Origin: Bacteroidales bacterium
GTDB lineage: Bacteria; Bacteroidota; Bacteroidia; Bacteroidales; ML635J-15
NCBI GenBank assembly: GCA_028686735.1
Contig: JAQUBO010000006.1
Span: 1 to 49,648 of the forward strand
DNA: 49,648 nucleotides
Direction: 5' to 3'
The notes under the pieces are model-generated. The model saw only the letters and a program-made list of their open reading frames with translations, did no database searches and was not told where the DNA came from. Shown here piece by piece: positions 32,679-44,887 of this stretch. Each line of letters begins with the position of its first letter. Positions within the stretch are counted from its first letter, which is position 1. The position numbers were made by a program, and so were the translations under genes.

Positions 32679-33002
32679 ATGTCTGTTTTAATGAATTATG
32701 CCATGTTTCCAACAGATAAGGGAGACAGTGTAAGTAAGTTTGTTAGTAAAATAATCAAATTAGTTTCAGACTCAGGTTACGAATACAAACTAAATGCAAT
32801 GGGAACTGTAATTGAAACCGAAAATCTAGAACAAGCATTAGATATTGTAAGCAAATCCTATAAAATTCTTGAGCCTTTTTCTGACAGAGTTTACGCAACA
32901 GTTAGTTTTGATATCCAAACTAATAAATCTATCGGAAGATTAGAAGGAAAAGTAAAATCTATTAAAGATAAAATGTCTGTGACTGAGGAGCAAGGCGACT
33001 GA
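32679..33002 (+). CDS. MTH1187-type (DUF77) thiamine-binding family protein
   Basis: MNYAMFPTDKGDSVSKFVSKIIKLVSDSGYEYKLNAMGTVIETENLEQALDIV; the last residues (VTEEQGD) are encoded by the dispersed repeat. Confidence 0.85.
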   Translation: MSVLMNYAMFPTDKGDSVSKFVSKIIKLVSDSGYEYKLNAMGTVIETENLEQALDIVSKSYKILEPFSDRVYATVSFDIQTNKSIGRLEGKVKSIKDKMSVTEEQGD

Positions 33003-33057
33003 GGAGCGTTGAGGTACGAAACGCATCTCGAAGCCCCGCAGCGTTAAAATCTCGAAG
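32976..33057 (+). repeat. Dispersed palindromic repeat, copy A (3' half only)
   Basis: gtgactgaggagcaaggcgactgaggagcgttgaggtacgaaacgcatctcgaagccccgcagcg matches the 3' half of copies B and D. Confidence 0.9.
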
Positions 33058-33345
33058 TTACCTAAACCGATAAGGCTTAGCCAATTTTGGCAAGTCATCA
33101 ACATTTCCTTCAATAAGTGCAATTTTCTTCTTTCTATTCCAACCTTGTACTTGTTTTTCACGTTTGAAAGCCCAATCTATCCGGCTATATTCTTCGTAGT
33201 ACACCAATTCCACAGGTAAATGTTTTGATGTATGATTTGCACCTTCTCCTGCTTGATGTTGTGCGATTCTTCTATCAAGATCTTTTGTGCTACCAGTATA
33301 AAAACTCCCATCAGCACATTCTAATATGTACATATATCCTTTCAA
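33058..33345 (-). CDS. GIY-YIG nuclease superfamily protein (95 aa)
   Basis: MYILECADGSFYTGSTKDLDRRIAQHQAGEGANHTSKHLPVELVYYEEY: canonical short GIY-YIG domain. Confidence 0.95.
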   Translation of the reverse strand: MKGYMYILECADGSFYTGSTKDLDRRIAQHQAGEGANHTSKHLPVELVYYEEYSRIDWAFKREKQVQGWNRKKKIALIEGNVDDLPKLAKPYRFR

Positions 33346-33376
33346 ATGGTTTTTTTTGTAAAAATAGTAAAAATAT

Positions 33377-33520
33377 AATAAACCGGGGCTTCGAGACGCT
33401 CTGCTCCTCAGCCACCTACATTATTCTTATCAATAACATAGGTGACTGAGAAGCAAGGCGGCTGAGGAGCGTTGAGGTACGAAACGCATCTCGAAGCCCC
33501 GCAGCGTCTCAAAGCCCCGC
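33377..33520 (+). repeat. Dispersed palindromic repeat, copy B (full)
   Basis: ataataaaccggggcttcgagacgctctgctcctcagccacctacattattcttatcaataacataggtgactgagaagcaaggcggctgaggagcgttgaggtacgaaacgcatctcgaagccccgcagcg. Confidence 0.95.
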
Positions 33521-33601
33521 CCCAAAAAAAAACTCCCCCAAAACATTATACTTCCCCAAATTTTTACTAATTTTATACTCTTATACCCATTTTAGTTTAT
33601 T

Positions 33602-36217
33602 ATGTATTATAAAGAAGACACAAAACAAAGCACAAAGAAAAGCATACAATTGCCGGGTTTTACTAAGCGACACAAAGCAATGGCAGAAAATTACTATTGT
33701 TTAAGTCACAATGCCAACACTATTGATAAAATTAATCATTTACAAAAAGCATTATCATTATATCCATTTACAATTAAGTATCATGTTGCTTATGCAATTT
33801 TAATGCGAAAACAAGGTGATATTGAGACAGCCGAACAACACGAAAAACTAGCATCTGGTCTTAAACTTGCTCGAAAAAAACAAATACAACTTGGCATTTC
33901 TGGAAGTTCTGTTTACCGAGCAGCACTTATACAATACTACACTGGGATGTTTCACGATTGGAACAAAGGATACTCAATAGCCTCCGATTTAATTAACAGC
34001 TACCGCAGCTACCGCACATGTCGGGGCTTCGAAACGTTACGCTCCTCAGCATCCTCCATTTCCACAGTTACATACAGCAAAATCGCCAACAGCCCACACA
34101 GTAGTAATCCTAAAGTTTTTGCCAAAAGCTTACAAAATTACAAACCAAAAAGCAATAATGCACGCCGACAATGGCCGGGGGCAAATGCTGCCTTATCTCG
34201 CCGCGGTGCTGCTGCAATTATTACATTTTTTGTGATGAGCTTTGCCGGTTTGCATGCCTCAGCGAGTGAAAATTCTACAAAACCTGAAATCGTTTTACAA
34301 GAAAATGTTAATTGCTTACTGCTTGATAGTCAGATAGTAGAAGATGCTAACCCGCTGTTAATCAAACAGTTACATGCCACTACTCCTGATGAAAAAATCC
34401 CGTTCGGTCTTGACCGAATTGCTTTGTTTTTACTGCTTTTACCGCTTGTGGCATTCGCTCGTTCTGCCTTATCAGGAAAGTCTAAATTGTTGTGCTACAT
34501 ACTTATTTCTAGCATCTTCGCACTAGGAATCAACACAGCAGTGCAAGGACAAGCAGCAAGCGGATGGGGAATGGTAAAAGACAATAATAATGAACGTATG
34601 AATCAAGCTCGAGTCACATACATAATGGCTGAAAATGAACTACAATGCCTCGATGTAAATACACTCAGTGATGGAATGTACTTTTTTAACAACATCGACC
34701 TCATCACAACAAACATCGAAAATAAACCAACACTTGAAGAACTCACAACATACATCGGCACAGGCCAAGATCATAATATTAACATTCAAACATTTACCCT
34801 GAGCCAGTCGAAGGGACAACCAACAAACGCAACAATGTATAACATGCTCGGTCAACCAATAACAACAATCAATCCAGAATGGGACGGAGAACTCGCTCAT
34901 TATTATTGGGACGGAAGCGTAAACGGACAAGAACTCCCAGTAGGAAGTTACATTTTTACAACAGCAGTTAATGGCGAACAATTCACGCAAAAAGTTATGC
35001 AACTCAACAACGGCTCATTTATTGGCGACAATTATCAAGTTGAAGAAAAAAATCTTATGAACAACAAATCTTCACAAACAGTTGAAAAAAAATTCTACGT
35101 TGAATTAACACCAGACCCTAACGGCGATCAATTCCTACCACAAGTAGATACTGTATGGCTACACGAAGGAACAGATAATGAAGTCTTTCATTACGTAGAA
35201 CCTATTCCTGCAACTATTGATCAATACTTCAAACTCGTTGACAGCAACACTCGAGAAGGATTAGAAAATTTTACTATTCGTGCGCGAGATACAGATGCAA
35301 GTGGAGAAATTCTTGACAGCTCATTAACTAACGCAAACGGAATCGCGCTCTTAGAAAATATTCCTGAAGACGCATTACTCTATTTAGAATACGGACCAGA
35401 ATTTAGTAACGGCGCAGACACCTCATACTACTCAAGCAAAGGAAACAAATGGCAAATGCTACCAGACACCTGGTTTGCAAACGACACCATAAGTCCGGAC
35501 ACTGTAAAACTCGCTCTTCCAAACAAAAACTTAATCATCCCACAAACAATAAACGATCCAGCACCAGCAACAATCTGGACACCTGCAAGTTATATTAGAG
35601 AACTAGTTGGATATGATCAAATTGCAGGAGAAGATTTTGTAAATATCGAACAAGCTTGTCGAAATGAAATACGGATTTGGATAGATGAAGAAAGTTTTAC
35701 ATCCTTGCAATTAGAAAATATGGAAAATTTATTACAAGATATAGATAGTTTATTTTACGGGACCGAACAATTTACCTACACAATTGTTGAAGATAGTATT
35801 AACACGGAAAATCTATCTTATATGAGCGATTATCATCACAGCGAAAATTATTACCCTGGAGAACTTGGCTATAACATCAGAGACGGACCCGGACACGTTA
35901 GCCCCAAATCAAAATCTTACAACGAATTTATTATTAACGAACAAAATACAGACAATATGAGAATAATTTTAGGAGGTAATATTTGGACCTCAACATACGA
36001 TGAAGAATTCATAAAAGAAACAGTGATGAGACTTAACGAATTTCAAAACGTAACATCACGACCAAGCTTTGGAAACCTCATGCCAACATACCCTAATTAT
36101 TTTGATAGAGCAATAACACGAACAATTCGAGTTAATCATTATAACCGTGTAAGCTTAAGTGACGAACGAGTACAAAGTTTTAGTTTAGAACATTTACAAG
36201 ATTATTTTAACGAATAA
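33602..36217 (+). CDS. Large hypothetical protein; TPR-like N-terminus, central membrane segments, FlgD/T9SS-sorting-like segment
   Basis: 871 aa ORF; NMLGQPITTINPEWDGELAHYYWDGSVNGQELPVGSYIFTTAVNGEQFTQKVM; carries two repeat-derived insertions (34019-34058, 34796-34818). Confidence 0.6.
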   Translation: MYYKEDTKQSTKKSIQLPGFTKRHKAMAENYYCLSHNANTIDKINHLQKALSLYPFTIKYHVAYAILMRKQGDIETAEQHEKLASGLKLARKKQIQLGISGSSVYRAALIQYYTGMFHDWNKGYSIASDLINSYRSYRTCRGFETLRSSASSISTVTYSKIANSPHSSNPKVFAKSLQNYKPKSNNARRQWPGANAALSRRGAAAIITFFVMSFAGLHASASENSTKPEIVLQENVNCLLLDSQIVEDANPLLIKQLHATTPDEKIPFGLDRIALFLLLLPLVAFARSALSGKSKLLCYILISSIFALGINTAVQGQAASGWGMVKDNNNERMNQARVTYIMAENELQCLDVNTLSDGMYFFNNIDLITTNIENKPTLEELTTYIGTGQDHNINIQTFTLSQSKGQPTNATMYNMLGQPITTINPEWDGELAHYYWDGSVNGQELPVGSYIFTTAVNGEQFTQKVMQLNNGSFIGDNYQVEEKNLMNNKSSQTVEKKFYVELTPDPNGDQFLPQVDTVWLHEGTDNEVFHYVEPIPATIDQYFKLVDSNTREGLENFTIRARDTDASGEILDSSLTNANGIALLENIPEDALLYLEYGPEFSNGADTSYYSSKGNKWQMLPDTWFANDTISPDTVKLALPNKNLIIPQTINDPAPATIWTPASYIRELVGYDQIAGEDFVNIEQACRNEIRIWIDEESFTSLQLENMENLLQDIDSLFYGTEQFTYTIVEDSINTENLSYMSDYHHSENYYPGELGYNIRDGPGHVSPKSKSYNEFIINEQNTDNMRIILGGNIWTSTYDEEFIKETVMRLNEFQNVTSRPSFGNLMPTYPNYFDRAITRTIRVNHYNRVSLSDERVQSFSLEHLQDYFNE
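34019..34058 (+). repeat. Fragment of the dispersed repeat 5' arm inside a CDS
   Basis: tgtcggggcttcgaaacgttacgctcctcagcatcctcc versus cggggcttcgagacgctctgctcctcagccacc. Confidence 0.75.
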
Positions 36218-37164: not shown

Positions 37165-37303
37165 CCGGGGCTTCGAGACGCTCTGCTCCTCAGCCACCTA
37201 CATTATTCTTATCAATAACATAGGTGACTGAGGAGCGTTGAGGTACGAAACGCATCTCGAAGCCCCGCAGCATCTCGAAGCCCCGCAGCGTCTCGAAGGC
37301 ACC
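37165..37303 (+). repeat. Dispersed palindromic repeat, copy C
   Basis: Same as copy B but lacking agaagcaaggcggctg and with a duplicated atctcgaagccccgcagc tip. Confidence 0.93.
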
Positions 37304-37310
37304 GGCTGAT

Positions 37311-37403
37311 GAATATTATCGGCATTGGGTTTATAATCCAGTATATAAACTTTATTATTCCTGTATTGTAAAATATCAATATGTCTGGTTATAAAATTAT
37401 GTG
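37311..37403 (-). pseudogene. Fragment of a paralogue of the RecB/Cas4-like nuclease domain of the 39362-40348 CDS
   Basis: Encodes NFITRHIDILQYRNNKVYILDYKPNADN versus NGYITGHIDILQYRNNKVYILDYKPKADK in the intact gene; the DNA also aligns with scattered differences. Confidence 0.85.
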
Positions 37404-37416
37404 TCGTGCGCAGGCT

Positions 37417-37445
37417 ATCATGGTACGAATGTGTCGTGCCATGAT
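37417..37445. repeat. Hairpin repeat, copy 1 (left of AbiE-like module)
   Basis: ATCATGGTACGA-ATGTG-TCGTGCCATGAT; 12-bp stem with one G-U pair. Confidence 0.8.
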
Positions 37446-37540
37446 TTTGGGGCAGCGTTTTTGATTTTCGGATATAGGACAAAAGCATCCTGAAATTTCA
37501 TGATAATGGGGACATGCAATTAACTACAGATTTTCACATT

Positions 37541-38542
37541 TTACTCATCTATTGTTATATTTATATTTCGTATTTTGTCTGTCAATTCCGATATTTTAGT
37601 TAATAATTCTTCAAATGTCTTTTTTGATTTGTCGTAGATAAAACTTTCCCGTAGATTATCGTAATCGTTTTTCCAATCCTTAATCAACTTTTCAGGTGGA
37701 TAAATTTGTATTGCATCAGGATAATGAGACCGATAATCTAAATTTTGGATATCATTGAATTTTTGCCTGTGTTTTATTATTGTTTTGTATAATTCTGTAT
37801 TTTGCAATGCCAATTCTGCATAAGGACTGTTCATCATTTTTTCCAAATCGTATAAATGTCTTGACATTCTTTCAGTGCGTGGATTGTCTTTTTGATATTC
37901 TTCGTGCAATAAGAATATCTTTTCTAAAAAAGTACGTTCAGGCAAAACAGATTTAAACATACATTTTATTTCGTTATCTATTTGGATATATTGATGATGG
38001 ATTAATGTTGTAATTTCTTGTTCCGAATAAGGCTCATCAAGTGACATAGCACTAAATTCGATTTTTACGACAGGCAAAATATAATCAATTATCGTGGCAA
38101 GAATGCTTTTGTATTTCACTTCGATAGTTGTAATCATCGCACTACTGTTCTCAGTAACAAGTTTTATTTCATAACCAGTGATTCCATTATAAATCAACAC
38201 CTTATCCAATTCGTCTATCAGTGTGCCTTCTATATAATGAAATACATTTCGACGAATTTTTGCTCGTTGTTGTTTAGTTTCTTCTTGTAAACAAAAATAT
38301 GTTCGATTTATTGCCAAATCAATATCTTCACTAAAACGATTAATCAGCCCCCACGCCTTGCTTAAAGAAGTTCCACCTTTGAATTGTAAAAAATTAGCAC
38401 AAGACGTTTTTGACAAAGCCATCAAAACAGCACATACCCACCAATCTTTTTCGACCGCTTGTTCAATAATATTATTTGTAACTGCCGTTTGTTGAAGCAT
38501 TACAAGCTTTTCATCATTATTGTATCGAACCCAAATACTCAT
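37541..38542 (-). CDS. AbiEii/AbiGii-type nucleotidyltransferase toxin family protein
   Basis: FLQFKGGTSLSKAWGLINRFSEDIDLAINR is the family nucleotidyltransferase motif. Confidence 0.92.
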   Translation of the reverse strand: MSIWVRYNNDEKLVMLQQTAVTNNIIEQAVEKDWWVCAVLMALSKTSCANFLQFKGGTSLSKAWGLINRFSEDIDLAINRTYFCLQEETKQQRAKIRRNVFHYIEGTLIDELDKVLIYNGITGYEIKLVTENSSAMITTIEVKYKSILATIIDYILPVVKIEFSAMSLDEPYSEQEITTLIHHQYIQIDNEIKCMFKSVLPERTFLEKIFLLHEEYQKDNPRTERMSRHLYDLEKMMNSPYAELALQNTELYKTIIKHRQKFNDIQNLDYRSHYPDAIQIYPPEKLIKDWKNDYDNLRESFIYDKSKKTFEELLTKISELTDKIRNINITIDE

Positions 38543-39156
38543 TTTGTTGTCTTTTTTATAATTGGTAAAAGTAGTTCTTTAATCCATACTGGTGATAAGT
38601 ATAAATCATGCATCATTGTTGTTTTTTCTTCTGCATTGCTCTCTAAAATAAGATCAAAGATTTTATTCCGGATATCGTCTGTAACTCGATTTTTACTAAG
38701 TTCTTTCAGGGCAATAATTATTAATGGCAAAAGCTTACCTTTAAATTGAAAGTTTTTTTGAACAGCATTTTTAAAAATAATATATCTTTCCCCAACTTTT
38801 ACTTTTCGCTTTGCTCCATTTGTAATATATACTGCATTCATTGGTACTTGTGTTGAAAATCCTAAAATATTCAATGCAGTATCGCCTGTTGGCATAATTT
38901 GTGCCTTGTCCCGTTCGGCTATCTTTTGGGCAATTTGATCTAATGTGGGATGCATTATACCGAATTGTGTTTTTTTAGGGTTCATATAAATGCCTGTTGC
39001 CAAACGAATAATTGTGCCTTCCTTTTGCAAACGTGATAGCGTCCGTGTAACCAGATTATCATTGTTTAAACTCTCAAAATCCTTGATTGTAAACAATTCA
39101 CCTGCCTTAATTTGTTTTATTTGGTCTCTTATTTTTTGTGAAATACTATCTTCCAT
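38539..39156 (-). CDS. AbiEi-like/DUF6088-type antitoxin partner
   Basis: MEDSISQKIRDQIKQIKAGELFTIKDFESLNNDNLVTRTLSRLQKEGTIIRLATGIYMNPK (winged-helix type); overlaps the toxin start by 4 bp. The ORF track start at 39300 is probably too far upstream. Confidence 0.85.
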   Translation of the reverse strand: MEDSISQKIRDQIKQIKAGELFTIKDFESLNNDNLVTRTLSRLQKEGTIIRLATGIYMNPKKTQFGIMHPTLDQIAQKIAERDKAQIMPTGDTALNILGFSTQVPMNAVYITNGAKRKVKVGERYIIFKNAVQKNFQFKGKLLPLIIIALKELSKNRVTDDIRNKIFDLILESNAEEKTTMMHDLYLSPVWIKELLLPIIKKTTK

Positions 39157-39274
39157 ATTTTTTACATTTGTCTGAAATATCTGGTAAATATCGGACAAAT
39201 ATACAAATATTTTTACTAATTTAAATATCAAAATTTCCAATCTTAACATGAATTTGAAAACTTTGAGTACAGCC

Positions 39275-39303
39275 ATCATGGCACTAGTGTTTAGTGCCAT
39301 GAT
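39275..39303. repeat. Hairpin repeat, copy 2 (right of AbiE-like module)
   Basis: ATCATGGCACTA-GTGTT-TAGTGCCATGAT perfect 12-bp stem. Confidence 0.85.
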
Positions 39304-39361: not shown

Positions 39362-40348
39362 CTATTTATAATTCTGCATCAAATATTTATATACTTTCAT
39401 AGCTCCAGTTTCATAATATATATTCTCATCAAACCAAGCAAGTTCAATCTTTGAAAAAGGAATACCAGTTGCTTTGCTTAAGCAGCATGCGTAAATAAAA
39501 AGTTGTCCAAGTGGTTTTTCTTTATCTGCTTTTGGTTTATAATCTAGGATATATACTTTATTATTTCGGTATTGTAATATATCTATATGTCCTGTAATGT
39601 AACCGTTATTAGATTTAAGGTTTTTGAGCCATGGGATAGTTGAATTACTCACATTTATAAAAACAGGCACCTCAACGGCAATAGTGCTTATGTCATTTTT
39701 TAGCATAACTTTTTCCACAGCCGCATGCCTTTTGTAATTATCATCAACAGTAGCGAGTGCAATTCGTGTTAGTTTACATGCATTATTATTCGTTTTACGT
39801 AATTCAACTGCATGATTAATATTTAACTTTACTTTAGAAGCACTCAGAGTACTTTTTGTAAATATATTGTTATCAATTTTACCATAACTTAAGAGTTTTA
39901 AATAATTATATAATCGTTTTTCTTTATTACGGATAAAAGTTTCTAGTTTAAATGAATTTTGCTGATATATATAAACCAATTTATGTAGATACTTATAACG
40001 ATTAATTGTTTGATGCTTTTTACTGAAATCACGAATAAGCTTTACATATTTTTGTAAGTTAAATAGGTCAGCATATTGATTTTTCCAATTTCCAATAGTA
40101 CTTTTTGGAATTCCTGTTTTCTTACTGATTTCAACTATGGTAAACCCTTGATTATAAAGCGATAAGGTTTTAATAACATCTTCTATTTTATACGATTTGT
40201 TTTTTATTGCTTCGTTGGTAAAGCGTTTTTTACATTCTTTACATAAATACAATTGAACAGATTTATGCTTATTCTCTCGCTTGCCTTTTTTTATAATCTT
40301 ATCAGAGCCACAGTATGGGCAATTAATAGTTGAGGTGTTGGGTTTCAT
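39362..40348 (-). CDS. Zinc-ribbon + HTH (IS1-transposase-like) N-terminus fused to a PD-(D/E)XK (RecB/Cas4-like) nuclease domain
   Basis: CPYCGSDKIIKKGKRENKHKSVQLYLCKECKKRF; FTIVEISKKTGIPKSTIGNWKNQYADL; nuclease motifs RHAAVEKVM, GHIDIL, VYILDYKPK, QLFIYA. Confidence 0.8.
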   Translation of the reverse strand: MKPNTSTINCPYCGSDKIIKKGKRENKHKSVQLYLCKECKKRFTNEAIKNKSYKIEDVIKTLSLYNQGFTIVEISKKTGIPKSTIGNWKNQYADLFNLQKYVKLIRDFSKKHQTINRYKYLHKLVYIYQQNSFKLETFIRNKEKRLYNYLKLLSYGKIDNNIFTKSTLSASKVKLNINHAVELRKTNNNACKLTRIALATVDDNYKRHAAVEKVMLKNDISTIAVEVPVFINVSNSTIPWLKNLKSNNGYITGHIDILQYRNNKVYILDYKPKADKEKPLGQLFIYACCLSKATGIPFSKIELAWFDENIYYETGAMKVYKYLMQNYK

Positions 40349-41320: not shown

Positions 41321-41458
41321 CCGGGGCTTCGAGACGCTCTGCTCCTCAGCCACCTACATTATTCTTATCAATAACATAGGTGACTGAGAAGCAAGGCGGC
41401 TGAGGAGCGTTGAGGTACGAAACGCATCTCGAAGCCCCGCAGCGTCTCGAAGGCACCA
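41321..41458 (+). repeat. Dispersed palindromic repeat, copy D (full)
   Basis: Nearly identical to copy B across ccggggcttcgag...gaagccccgcagcgtctcgaaggcacc. Confidence 0.95.
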
Positions 41459-41475: not shown

Positions 41476-42839
41476 CTACCCAAGCTTAAAATAATAATGT
41501 TTTAACCAATAGTTATACATTGGGTCAAGTATAGTTATTGAATTATCAAATAAATCAATAACTTCTTTATTTTCGAGACTGGATTTTATTCTTGCAACAT
41601 TTGCAGATGTGCCAAGATTATACAAGTTGATAACATACTTTGAGCTTAATTGTGTTTCATCAGAAATTAAGGCTTTTAAAAAGTTAACTTGTGTGTTACT
41701 TAAATCATCGGTAAGTTTTTGAAATAAATAGTCTAATTGCAGTATCAAGTTTTCATGTGAATTTAGTACAATTTCTTTGGAGCATTCACTTGTAGATCTT
41801 AACCAAACAAGTTGAGCCAATTGTTGTACATAATATGGATGACACTCAGCCATGTCAACAATCATCTCAGCTAAAGATTTGTCAATCTTTTTACCTGTAT
41901 CTTTAAATCGTTTGATAATAAATTTGGTAAGTGCAGATTTTTCAATTTTTTGTAAAAATAATATGTCTCCAAATTTATAAAACGGCATTGATGATGACGT
42001 AAATACATCCATTAACATGTGTCGTTTACTGCCATATAAACAGTAAGATGTATTTATGTGTTTTTGCCAATTAGACCTTAATTTTTTCTGTATTGCAAGA
42101 GAATCCCCAAAACTTGAAATGTTCTGGAATTCATCAATACAGATTATAAACCTAAATTTTTTATTTGATTCAGGACTAAATGATAAGTTTGGGATTAACC
42201 TGCCTAAAAACCTACCGGATTTTTCGATAATCTCTTCAACTTTAGTATTTGATTGAAGTAATACATTTTTCGCTAGTAAAGTATAGAAATCTTCTTCTGT
42301 ACGAACATTAAATAAATCAATGAAAACAAATCTTAGGTGTTTGTCTTTCTTTACGGCAAGTTTAGATGCTTTTACAACTAACCCGCATTATTACTTCGTG
42401 AGGGCTTCGCCGTTCATGCGATTAGCTTTGTGTAGCTGGTAGGCGTCGAAACTTGCAGATATATCCTTATATTTACTCACATTTTTATTATATTTATAGG
42501 TGTTCGTGAGCTAAAGGTTCAAGAGTTTCGCAACGAAGCAGATGCACAAAGATAATTGTAAGCTTTCTCAAAATTTGACTAATAATAAAACCACAAATAC
42601 CTTGTCAAGCCCCTGACTAACAACTCATTATAAACCAACCAAGAATAATGCGATGAACGGCTTTAGCCCTCACTGAAAGTAATAATGCGGGCTAAGGATG
42701 ATTTACCCCAACGTCTTGGAGAAATCAATATAGTATTTATTCCTGATGTAAAGTTTTTTATTAATCTTTATGATTCATTTTCTCTATTAGTGAAATTTGA
42801 ATCGTATGCAATTTTTCCAAAAGTAAACGGTGCTATCAT
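41476..42839 (-). pseudogene. AAA/archaeal-type P-loop ATPase, interrupted by MITE and an early stop
   Basis: MIAPFTFGKIAYDSNFTNRENES*RLIKNFTSGINTILISPRRWGKSSL [MITE] VVKASKLAVKKDKHLRFVFIDLFNVR...FIICIDEFQNISSFGDSLAIQKKLRSNWQKHINTSYCLYGSKRHMLMDVF. Stop TAA at 42768-42770; insertion at 42382-42691. Confidence 0.92.
42382..42691. mobile_element. MITE copy 1 (310 bp), TSD CTAA
   Basis: Perfect 15-bp terminal inverted repeats CCCGCATTATTACTT/AAGTAATAATGCGGG within ~40-bp imperfect TIRs; flanks CTAA at 42378-42381 and 42692-42695. Confidence 0.95.
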
Positions 42840-44279: not shown

Positions 44280-44576
44280 TTATTCTGTTACCCTGCGTTT
44301 CAAATCCATTCTTCCATGCAGGATTCTTGTTATTTCAATTGGCTTATTTGTAATTTTTCTGTAGAATATTATGTGTCTATTTTCCTTAAGTCCGAAAAGT
44401 TCTTTTTTTATTCCACTGTAACTCTTTCCTAAATTTGGATTGTCTGCAATTTCCTGACAATTAGATAGTAACATTCTATAATATTTGTCAGCTTGTTGTT
44501 CTGACCACTTGTCAAATGTATAATCCCAAATACTTGATAAATCTTCAACAGTTTTGTTTGTTAGTATAACCCGCAT
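44280..44576 (-). CDS. parE: RelE/ParE-superfamily toxin
   Basis: TNKTVEDLSSIWDYTFDKWSEQQADKYYRMLLSNCQEIADNPNLGKSYSGIKKELFGLKENRHIIFYRKI; current ATG lies in the MITE end. Confidence 0.93.
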   Translation of the reverse strand: MRVILTNKTVEDLSSIWDYTFDKWSEQQADKYYRMLLSNCQEIADNPNLGKSYSGIKKELFGLKENRHIIFYRKITNKPIEITRILHGRMDLKRRVTE

Positions 44577-44881
44577 TATTACTTCGTGAGGGCTTCGCCG
44601 TTCATACGATTAGCTTTGTGTAGCTGGTAGGCGTCGAAACTTGCAGATATATCCTTATATTTACTCACATTTTTTATAATATTTTATAGGTGTTCGTGAG
44701 CTAAAGGTTCAAGAGTTTCGCAACGAAGCAGATGCACAAAGCTAATTGTAAGCTTTCTCAAAATTTGGCTAATAATAAAACCATAAACACCGTGCCAATC
44801 CACTGACTAACAACTTATTACAAACCAACCAGGAATAATGCGATGAACGGCTTTAGCCCTCACTGAAAGTAATAATGCGGG
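44570..44881. mobile_element. MITE copy 2 (312 bp), TSD ATAA
   Basis: Same ends and same orientation as copy 1, high identity throughout; flanks ATAA at 44566-44569 and 44882-44885. Confidence 0.95.
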
Positions 44882-44887
44882 ATAAAT

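Follow-up and report, generated by a model that had tools for sequence, protein, structure and literature searches.

Small standalone GIY-YIG nuclease genes accompany REP/REPIN-type hairpin repeats and are candidates for their dedicated enzyme

The hairpin repeats bordering a small GIY-YIG gene of a Bacteroidales bacterium probably represent a REP/REPIN-type family that has a small standalone GIY-YIG nuclease, and not a RAYT (HUH) transposase, as its dedicated enzyme. The system is far wider than the window, as we call the whole stretch of 49,648 nucleotides analysed here, and far wider than a sequence-only reading of this DNA had suspected. Recognition of the cognate repeats by the nuclease is strongly supported; their binding, nicking or cleavage, copying and dispersal by the enzyme we infer. 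Direct support comes from the association of gene and repeats, the matching of their types, the covariation of the repeat arms, the conserved catalytic residues, and a REP-gene-REP block present in two different neighbourhoods.

Within the window, the ORF listing and BLAST together place the gene between the half copy A and the full copy B, as the sequence-only reading had it, and BLAST also recovered the further copies and the fragment reported there (Table 1). Copy A begins 13 bp beyond the stop codon of the gene, and copy B lies 38 bp ahead of its start. Every full copy in the window consists of two head-to-head hairpins. The claim that the repeat folds was substantiated by the 140-nt copy B, with a predicted fold of -37.4 kcal/mol (z=-6.6 against shuffled sequence). 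The repeat had also been called dispersed. Several copies do occur on the contig, but they span only about 9 kb, and BLAST found none elsewhere in the MAG (4.25 Mb, 404 contigs, 7.4% contamination). Repeat numbers for this genome as a whole come from BLAST and from pattern searches. The window type is thus confined to one contig, whereas related types reach about 30-760 copies per genome in repeat-rich genomes. As in known REPs and REPINs, the repeats are short palindromic hairpins, intergenic, and often in inverted pairs. They do not carry the unpaired GTAG tag typical of RAYT systems, and their foot is only C or CG, which differs from the signature of the CGTC superfamily (CGTC/TGTC/CCTC tag, stem starting with AT, CCA tail).

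Table 1. Positions of the GIY-YIG gene and of the repeat copies in the window
Feature	Position	Strand	Description
Repeat copy A	32979-33044	minus	one REP hairpin and part of the dimer spacer; 97% to the 3' half of copy B (BLAST)
GIY-YIG nuclease gene	33058-33345	minus	95 aa, TTG start, C-terminal tail LAKPYRFR
Repeat copy B	33383-33522	plus	complete REP dimer in head-to-head arrangement (REPIN-like), upstream of the GIY-YIG gene; BLAST query
Copy B hairpin 1	33385-33415	plus	core TTCGAGACGCTCTGCTCCTCA (type V)
Copy B hairpin 2	33458-33500	minus	core TTCGAGATGCGTT..AACGCTCCTCA, opposite strand
Repeat fragment	34022-34060	plus	inside ORF 33602-36217; 82% over 39 bp (BLAST)
Repeat copy C	37165-37303	plus	shortened spacer, extra tandem 3' units; BLAST 87% over 37165-37286
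Repeat copy D	41321-41458	plus	17 bp beyond the stop of a ParB-like gene; BLAST 99% over 41321-41452

Several other features of the window touch the repeats or lie between them. Copy A supplies the final codons and the stop of a thiamine-binding-protein gene (PF01910, 32679-33002). The fragment is in frame within its 871-aa ORF, so that the repeat has turned coding, unless the ORF is itself a fusion spanning it. The protein of 37198-37488 resembles the C-terminal part of gene 39362-40348 (common stretch YNNKVYILDYKP) and runs into copy C, and therefore looks like a remnant. Between copies C and D, an AbiEii-type toxin gene (PF08843, E=1e-29) and an adjoining DUF6088 gene (37541-39300) look like a type IV toxin-antitoxin pair. 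Two near-identical stretches (42379-42695 and 44567-44885, 94-99%) are about 2.2 kb apart. Elsewhere in the MAG, on contig C237, lies a second GIY-YIG homologue, with repeats of another type at its borders. CTTCGACAAGCTCAG repeats occur on contigs C3, C6, C34 and C97 (44 pattern matches in the assembly); neither of the two GIY-YIG genes of this family in the MAG has them alongside, other repeat types being found there.

The window ORF matches the Pfam GIY-YIG domain (PF01541, E=1.8e-18). Only GIY-YIG/T5orf172 models were hit; the Y1 HUH transposase domain (PF01797) of RAYT/TnpAREP is absent. Homologues 86% identical to it have PYRF tails. The AlphaFold2 model is a confident GIY-YIG fold (mean pLDDT 92.7) that ends in a short C-terminal helix, and the 95 residues comprise this domain and tail helix, with no separate DNA-binding region. 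The catalytic-type residues Y6, Y16, R26, H30 and E63 are unchanged in the 49 homologues compared, and the protein is therefore expected to be an active nuclease. The nearest solved structures are the UPF0213 proteins 1zg2 and 1ywl, followed by SLX1 (PDB 7cq2, 6seh), with a Foldseek E of 9.7e-7 against 1zg2 and a profile E of 1e-20 in the UPF0213/SLX1-like comparison. Like UPF0213 proteins, it is a standalone GIY-YIG fold with catalytic Y, R and E. A group I intron endonuclease identity (TIGR01453) was rejected for this protein subtype, since the match was below the cut-off and covered the N-terminus alone.

In one scan of GTDB species genomes, 80 homologous loci were retrieved, mostly from Bacteroidota and otherwise from Chloroflexota, Planctomycetota, Calditrichota, Ignavibacteriota and additional groups. 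A hairpin of the form X-TTCG[AG]..CTCA-X' was present at most 300 bp from the gene in 75 of 81 loci, in 51 of them on both sides, compared with 26 of 926 control windows taken from other parts of these loci (2.8%). Hairpin density fell from 7.4 per kb at less than 250 bp from the gene to 0.03 per kb at 7-10 kb. The excess over distant windows of the same loci was 30-fold or greater. In the 39 kb less than 250 bp from homologous genes we counted 293 such hairpins, whereas 1.2 Mb of Markov-shuffled sequence yielded 15, so that chance does not account for them. The core motif and the tail classes were set after the first loci had been inspected. Because the motif was defined after looking, a motif-free test was added, which, as also the protein tree, is independent of these definitions. 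It takes the longest exact word common to the 400 bp upstream and the 400 bp downstream of the gene, with at least 13 bases as criterion. Such words occurred in 50 of 72 loci but in only 23 of 775 control windows (p=3e-45). In phyla sampled afterwards, the same criterion gave 17 of 25 loci versus 2 of 50 controls (Pseudomonadota) and 17 of 24 versus 0 of 48 (Chloroflexota). The enrichment of repeats beside such genes in related genomes, which the sequence-only reading had put forward as a check, is therefore present. Together with the matching of repeat type and protein subtype across phyla (below), it also supports the proposal made there of a RAYT/REP-like partnership with a GIY-YIG nuclease.

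The repeats beside more distant family members have other sequences. Remoter GIY-YIG homologues (about 45-50% identical) are flanked by TTCGACAAGCTCA hairpins with a TGACA foot, and homologues of Methylobacterium, Sphingomonas, Planktothrix and Spirosoma stand beside still other repeats. Further widespread repeats next to GIY-YIG genes are TGTCACCCTGAGC.., GTCATTGCGAGG.., GTCATCTCGACTGAAG.., TGTCATTTCGAACGAG.., TGTCATTCTGAG.. and TGTCATCCCGAGGAACGAGGGATC.. (loci L126, L129, L136, L139, L151, L154, L205, L219 and L230). Most of the remote GIY-YIG genes have no TTCG-type repeat, though other repeats lay near three that were inspected. As controls, Bacillus subtilis yazA, Escherichia coli yhbQ and one Legionella homologue had no flanking repeats. 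At four loci (L035, L065, L078, L081) the GIY-YIG frame extends into the adjoining repeat and acquires a low-complexity tail, for example PSTGSG or TSSAT.

Among Pseudomonadota the flanking repeats resemble a group that is already named. A 2013 survey (Di Nocera, PMC3733652) described CGTC-tagged REPs that "apparently lack a dedicated transposase". They include Neisseria dRS3 and Rickettsia RPE-4/6, and with their relatives they occur in many phyla, their mover having been left open by the survey that named them (PMC3733652). Passages on CGTC REPs found by term in two later REP surveys (2018, 2025) name no partner either. The homologues of Rhizobium, Shinella and Sinorhizobium (on plasmid records) are bordered by CGTCATCC..GGGCTTGACCC..GGATCCA, and these alphaproteobacterial repeats share with the surveyed CGTC REPs the CGTC tag, a stem starting with AT, a loop of 4-5 nt, the CCA tail and the arrangement in head-to-head pairs (PMC3733652). 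Where the survey reports no transposase, we propose a partner gene; the window repeat itself differs from the CGTC REPs in its C/CG foot. A CGTC-type hairpin lay at most 400 bp from the gene in 24 of 30 Pseudomonadota loci (12 on both sides), with a density of 2.35 per kb near the gene and 0.2 per kb farther away. One CGTC pattern matched a Sinorhizobium meliloti record of 3.7 Mb four times in all, each time within about 650 bp of the gene.

Five repeat core types were distinguished beside the gene, each with its own C-terminal protein tail: TTCGAGnnCCTCA with AYRD, TTCGACnRGCTCA with NYTQ, TTCGRCTnCGCTCA with ECxNxTH, TTCGATA..TACTCA with AKKxxK, and the long core of the window, TTCGAGAC..CCTCA, with PYRF. 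Type I occurs in Bacteroidota, Chloroflexota and Planctomycetota, type II also in Calditrichota and Thermodesulfobacteriota, and type III also in Ignavibacteriota and Calditrichota. Two types are found in Flavobacterium and likewise in Aquimarina, and within these genera they track the protein. The five types require 6 changes (minimum 4) on a protein tree built by maximum likelihood, compared with a shuffled mean of 35.8, and the repeat type agreed with that of the nearest protein from another genus in 70 of 75 cases, where shuffling gave a mean of 22. This score was 64 for residues 76-93 alone and 41 for residues 1-75 alone, which makes the C-terminal tail the best candidate for the specificity element. 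The core type thus follows the protein, above all its tail, and not the host. The type matching is a correlation, to which linked inheritance contributes, since a repeat beside the gene is linked DNA and co-inheritance could explain part of the match; yet short intergenic DNA would otherwise hardly be alike across phyla.

The repeats share a common anatomy of five covarying base pairs, an asymmetric bulge (TTC opposite A), an inner stem and the subtype-specific core, followed at the 3' foot by a conserved unpaired C, often CG. For the arm-pairing test, sequences were picked by their core alone, and for comparison the 3' arms were redealt among them. The five bases on each side of the core pair in 53-99% of distinct copies, compared with 30-74% after shuffling, and several pair types occur per arm position, i.e. 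the arms covary. In 84-96%, the sixth 3' base is a C that has no partner.

Gene presence also predicts repeat number. The gene was found in 54 of 398 Bacteroidota genomes, and at least 10 CTTCGASNNSCTCAG copies were present in 19 of these 54 carriers but in only 15 of the 344 others (OR 11.9, p=6e-10). Among 299 Pseudomonadota genomes, at least 5 CGTC-1 copies were counted in 27 of the 70 carriers and in 25 of the remaining 229 (OR 5.1, p=8e-7). The link persisted under within-genus permutation (p=0.0035; one genus alone p=0.0003). Abundance of the repeats without the gene, which the sequence-only reading had named as evidence against a partnership, was therefore confirmed only for some genomes. 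A profile search of 21 repeat-rich genomes, chosen for showing no gene, left the homologue undetected in 13, which rules out a strict dependence of the repeats on the gene in its simple form. Two of the 21 (G491, G483) have gene matches interrupted by stop codons, and in another genome (G072) a broken gene copy adjoins its repeats. Such genomes suggest that the repeats can outlast the gene, from which repeat-rich, gene-free genomes would follow, or that they have an undetected mover.

Some loci suggest mobility of the unit as a whole. S. meliloti Ak57 and Shinella have a common block of about 375 bp, with REPs at both ends and the gene inside, in neighbourhoods that differ between the two. Sinorhizobium K101 has the same gltA-lpxB spacer as S. 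meliloti, with REPs but without the gene. This is a repeat-bounded presence/absence difference, whatever the direction of the change. The S. meliloti Ak57 record is labelled pSymB; carrying gltA and lpxB at 3.7 Mb, it is probably the chromosome. Its REP array contains a duplicate of the GIY-YIG gene's 3' end (L156 1200-1280). A shared-block analysis of 57 full loci contributed little, as most pairs are so distant that their flanks do not align. A RAYT was rejected as mover of the repeats in the window's genome, where the hairpin lies near none of four Y1 (RAYT-type) matches.

The favoured explanation can be put as follows. The nuclease gene would reside in a cluster of its own repeats, and the enzyme would recognise its cognate hairpin when single-stranded or extruded, reading the core partly via its C-terminal tail. 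It would nick this hairpin, and repair or replication would then copy the hairpin pair to new sites, mostly nearby. The REP-gene-REP block would be the autonomous unit, and the dispersed hairpin pairs its non-autonomous derivatives. GIY-YIG enzymes hydrolyse DNA, without the covalent intermediates that RAYTs use. Strand transfer would therefore need host repair, which counts against this explanation, as does the confinement of the window MAG's repeat to one contig.

The main rival shares the specific recognition and reverses the dependence: the repeats spread by other means, and a small homing-type GIY-YIG gene cuts them and inserts itself by repair, as a parasite. It would account for the repeat-rich genomes without the gene, for the REP pair that K101 has where S. 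meliloti carries both REPs and gene, and for the several gene copies that occur per genome, and GIY-YIG is a classic homing-endonuclease fold. It explains less well why repeat density peaks around the gene and fades with distance, why the gene predicts repeat number even within genera, and why the repeat cores change along with the protein subtype; nor are the Y1 matches of the window's genome flanked by these hairpins. We consider this rival unlikely, though a serious competitor. A host repair or regulatory nuclease, which processes hairpins or branched DNA next to repeats kept as regulatory or termination elements, appears improbable. The closest solved structures, UPF0213 proteins and the structure-specific nuclease SLX1, would fit such a role, as would the housekeeping relatives without repeats (B. 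subtilis yazA in an operon, E. coli yhbQ). However, the patchy presence among Bacteroidota, the neighbours that differ from genome to genome, the cassette-like unit and the broken copies suggest a mobile element instead of a conserved host role. That small selfish genes and repeats merely gather in the same permissive intergenic space, both being intergenic, deserves hardly any credence: this hotspot explanation is refuted by the flank excess over distant and control windows, by the motif-free test, and by the type matching on the protein tree, which across phyla cannot arise from a hotspot.

The REP/REPIN kind of element is already known, and what is proposed here is a REP system with a different enzyme. 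As in RAYT/TnpAREP systems (GTAG REPs, REPtron, REPIN), a single small enzyme gene is bordered by head-to-head hairpin repeats, enzyme and repeat subtypes are cognate, and solitary repeats lie elsewhere. The GIY-YIG-associated repeats also have a bulged stem and an unpaired, conserved foot, both of which have been shown to be important for TnpAREP on GTAG REPs (PMC8266576). The differences are a GIY-YIG enzyme in place of an HUH Y1 transposase, a foot of C/CG, TGTCA or CGTC in place of GTAG, and an expected hydrolytic chemistry. Small UPF0213/SLX1-like nucleases have the same fold and size as the window protein, but the UPF0213-like yazA, yhbQ and Legionella homologue stand without flanking repeats, whereas the repeat-associated proteins have subtype-specific C-terminal tails. 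With the GIY-YIG homing endonucleases I-TevI and I-BmoI the system shares the nuclease domain, and there is the weak, sub-cut-off N-terminal match to the intron endonuclease model. It differs from them by having neither a separate DNA-binding region nor an intron, and it is associated with numerous dispersed hairpins instead of a single cognate site. Our search of the open-licence literature of PubMed Central found no paper that ties GIY-YIG nucleases to REPs.

GIY-YIG enzymes of this small kind are thus strong candidates for the partner that spreads some of the commonest bacterial repeats. Beyond the window family, we lean towards a wider reading, in which small GIY-YIG nucleases would form a second, HUH-independent class of REP dispersal, would be the missing partner of the CGTC/TGTC-tagged repeats (e.g. 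CGTCATTCCCGCG..CGGGAATCCA, TGTCATTCTGAG..GAATCT, CTTCGACAAGCTCAG), and would choose their hairpins with the C-terminal tail, in at least Bacteroidota, Pseudomonadota, Chloroflexota, Cyanobacteriota, Calditrichota and Ignavibacteriota. The enzyme is small and easy to purify and comes with five natural repeat specificities and tails to match, which makes the question of the mover testable at the bench. If true, much of the short-repeat content of bacterial genomes would be accounted for by a nuclease family other than HUH; a compact nuclease specific for hairpins, whose recognition tail appears swappable, would be at hand; and the REPIN way of life would have had an independent origin.
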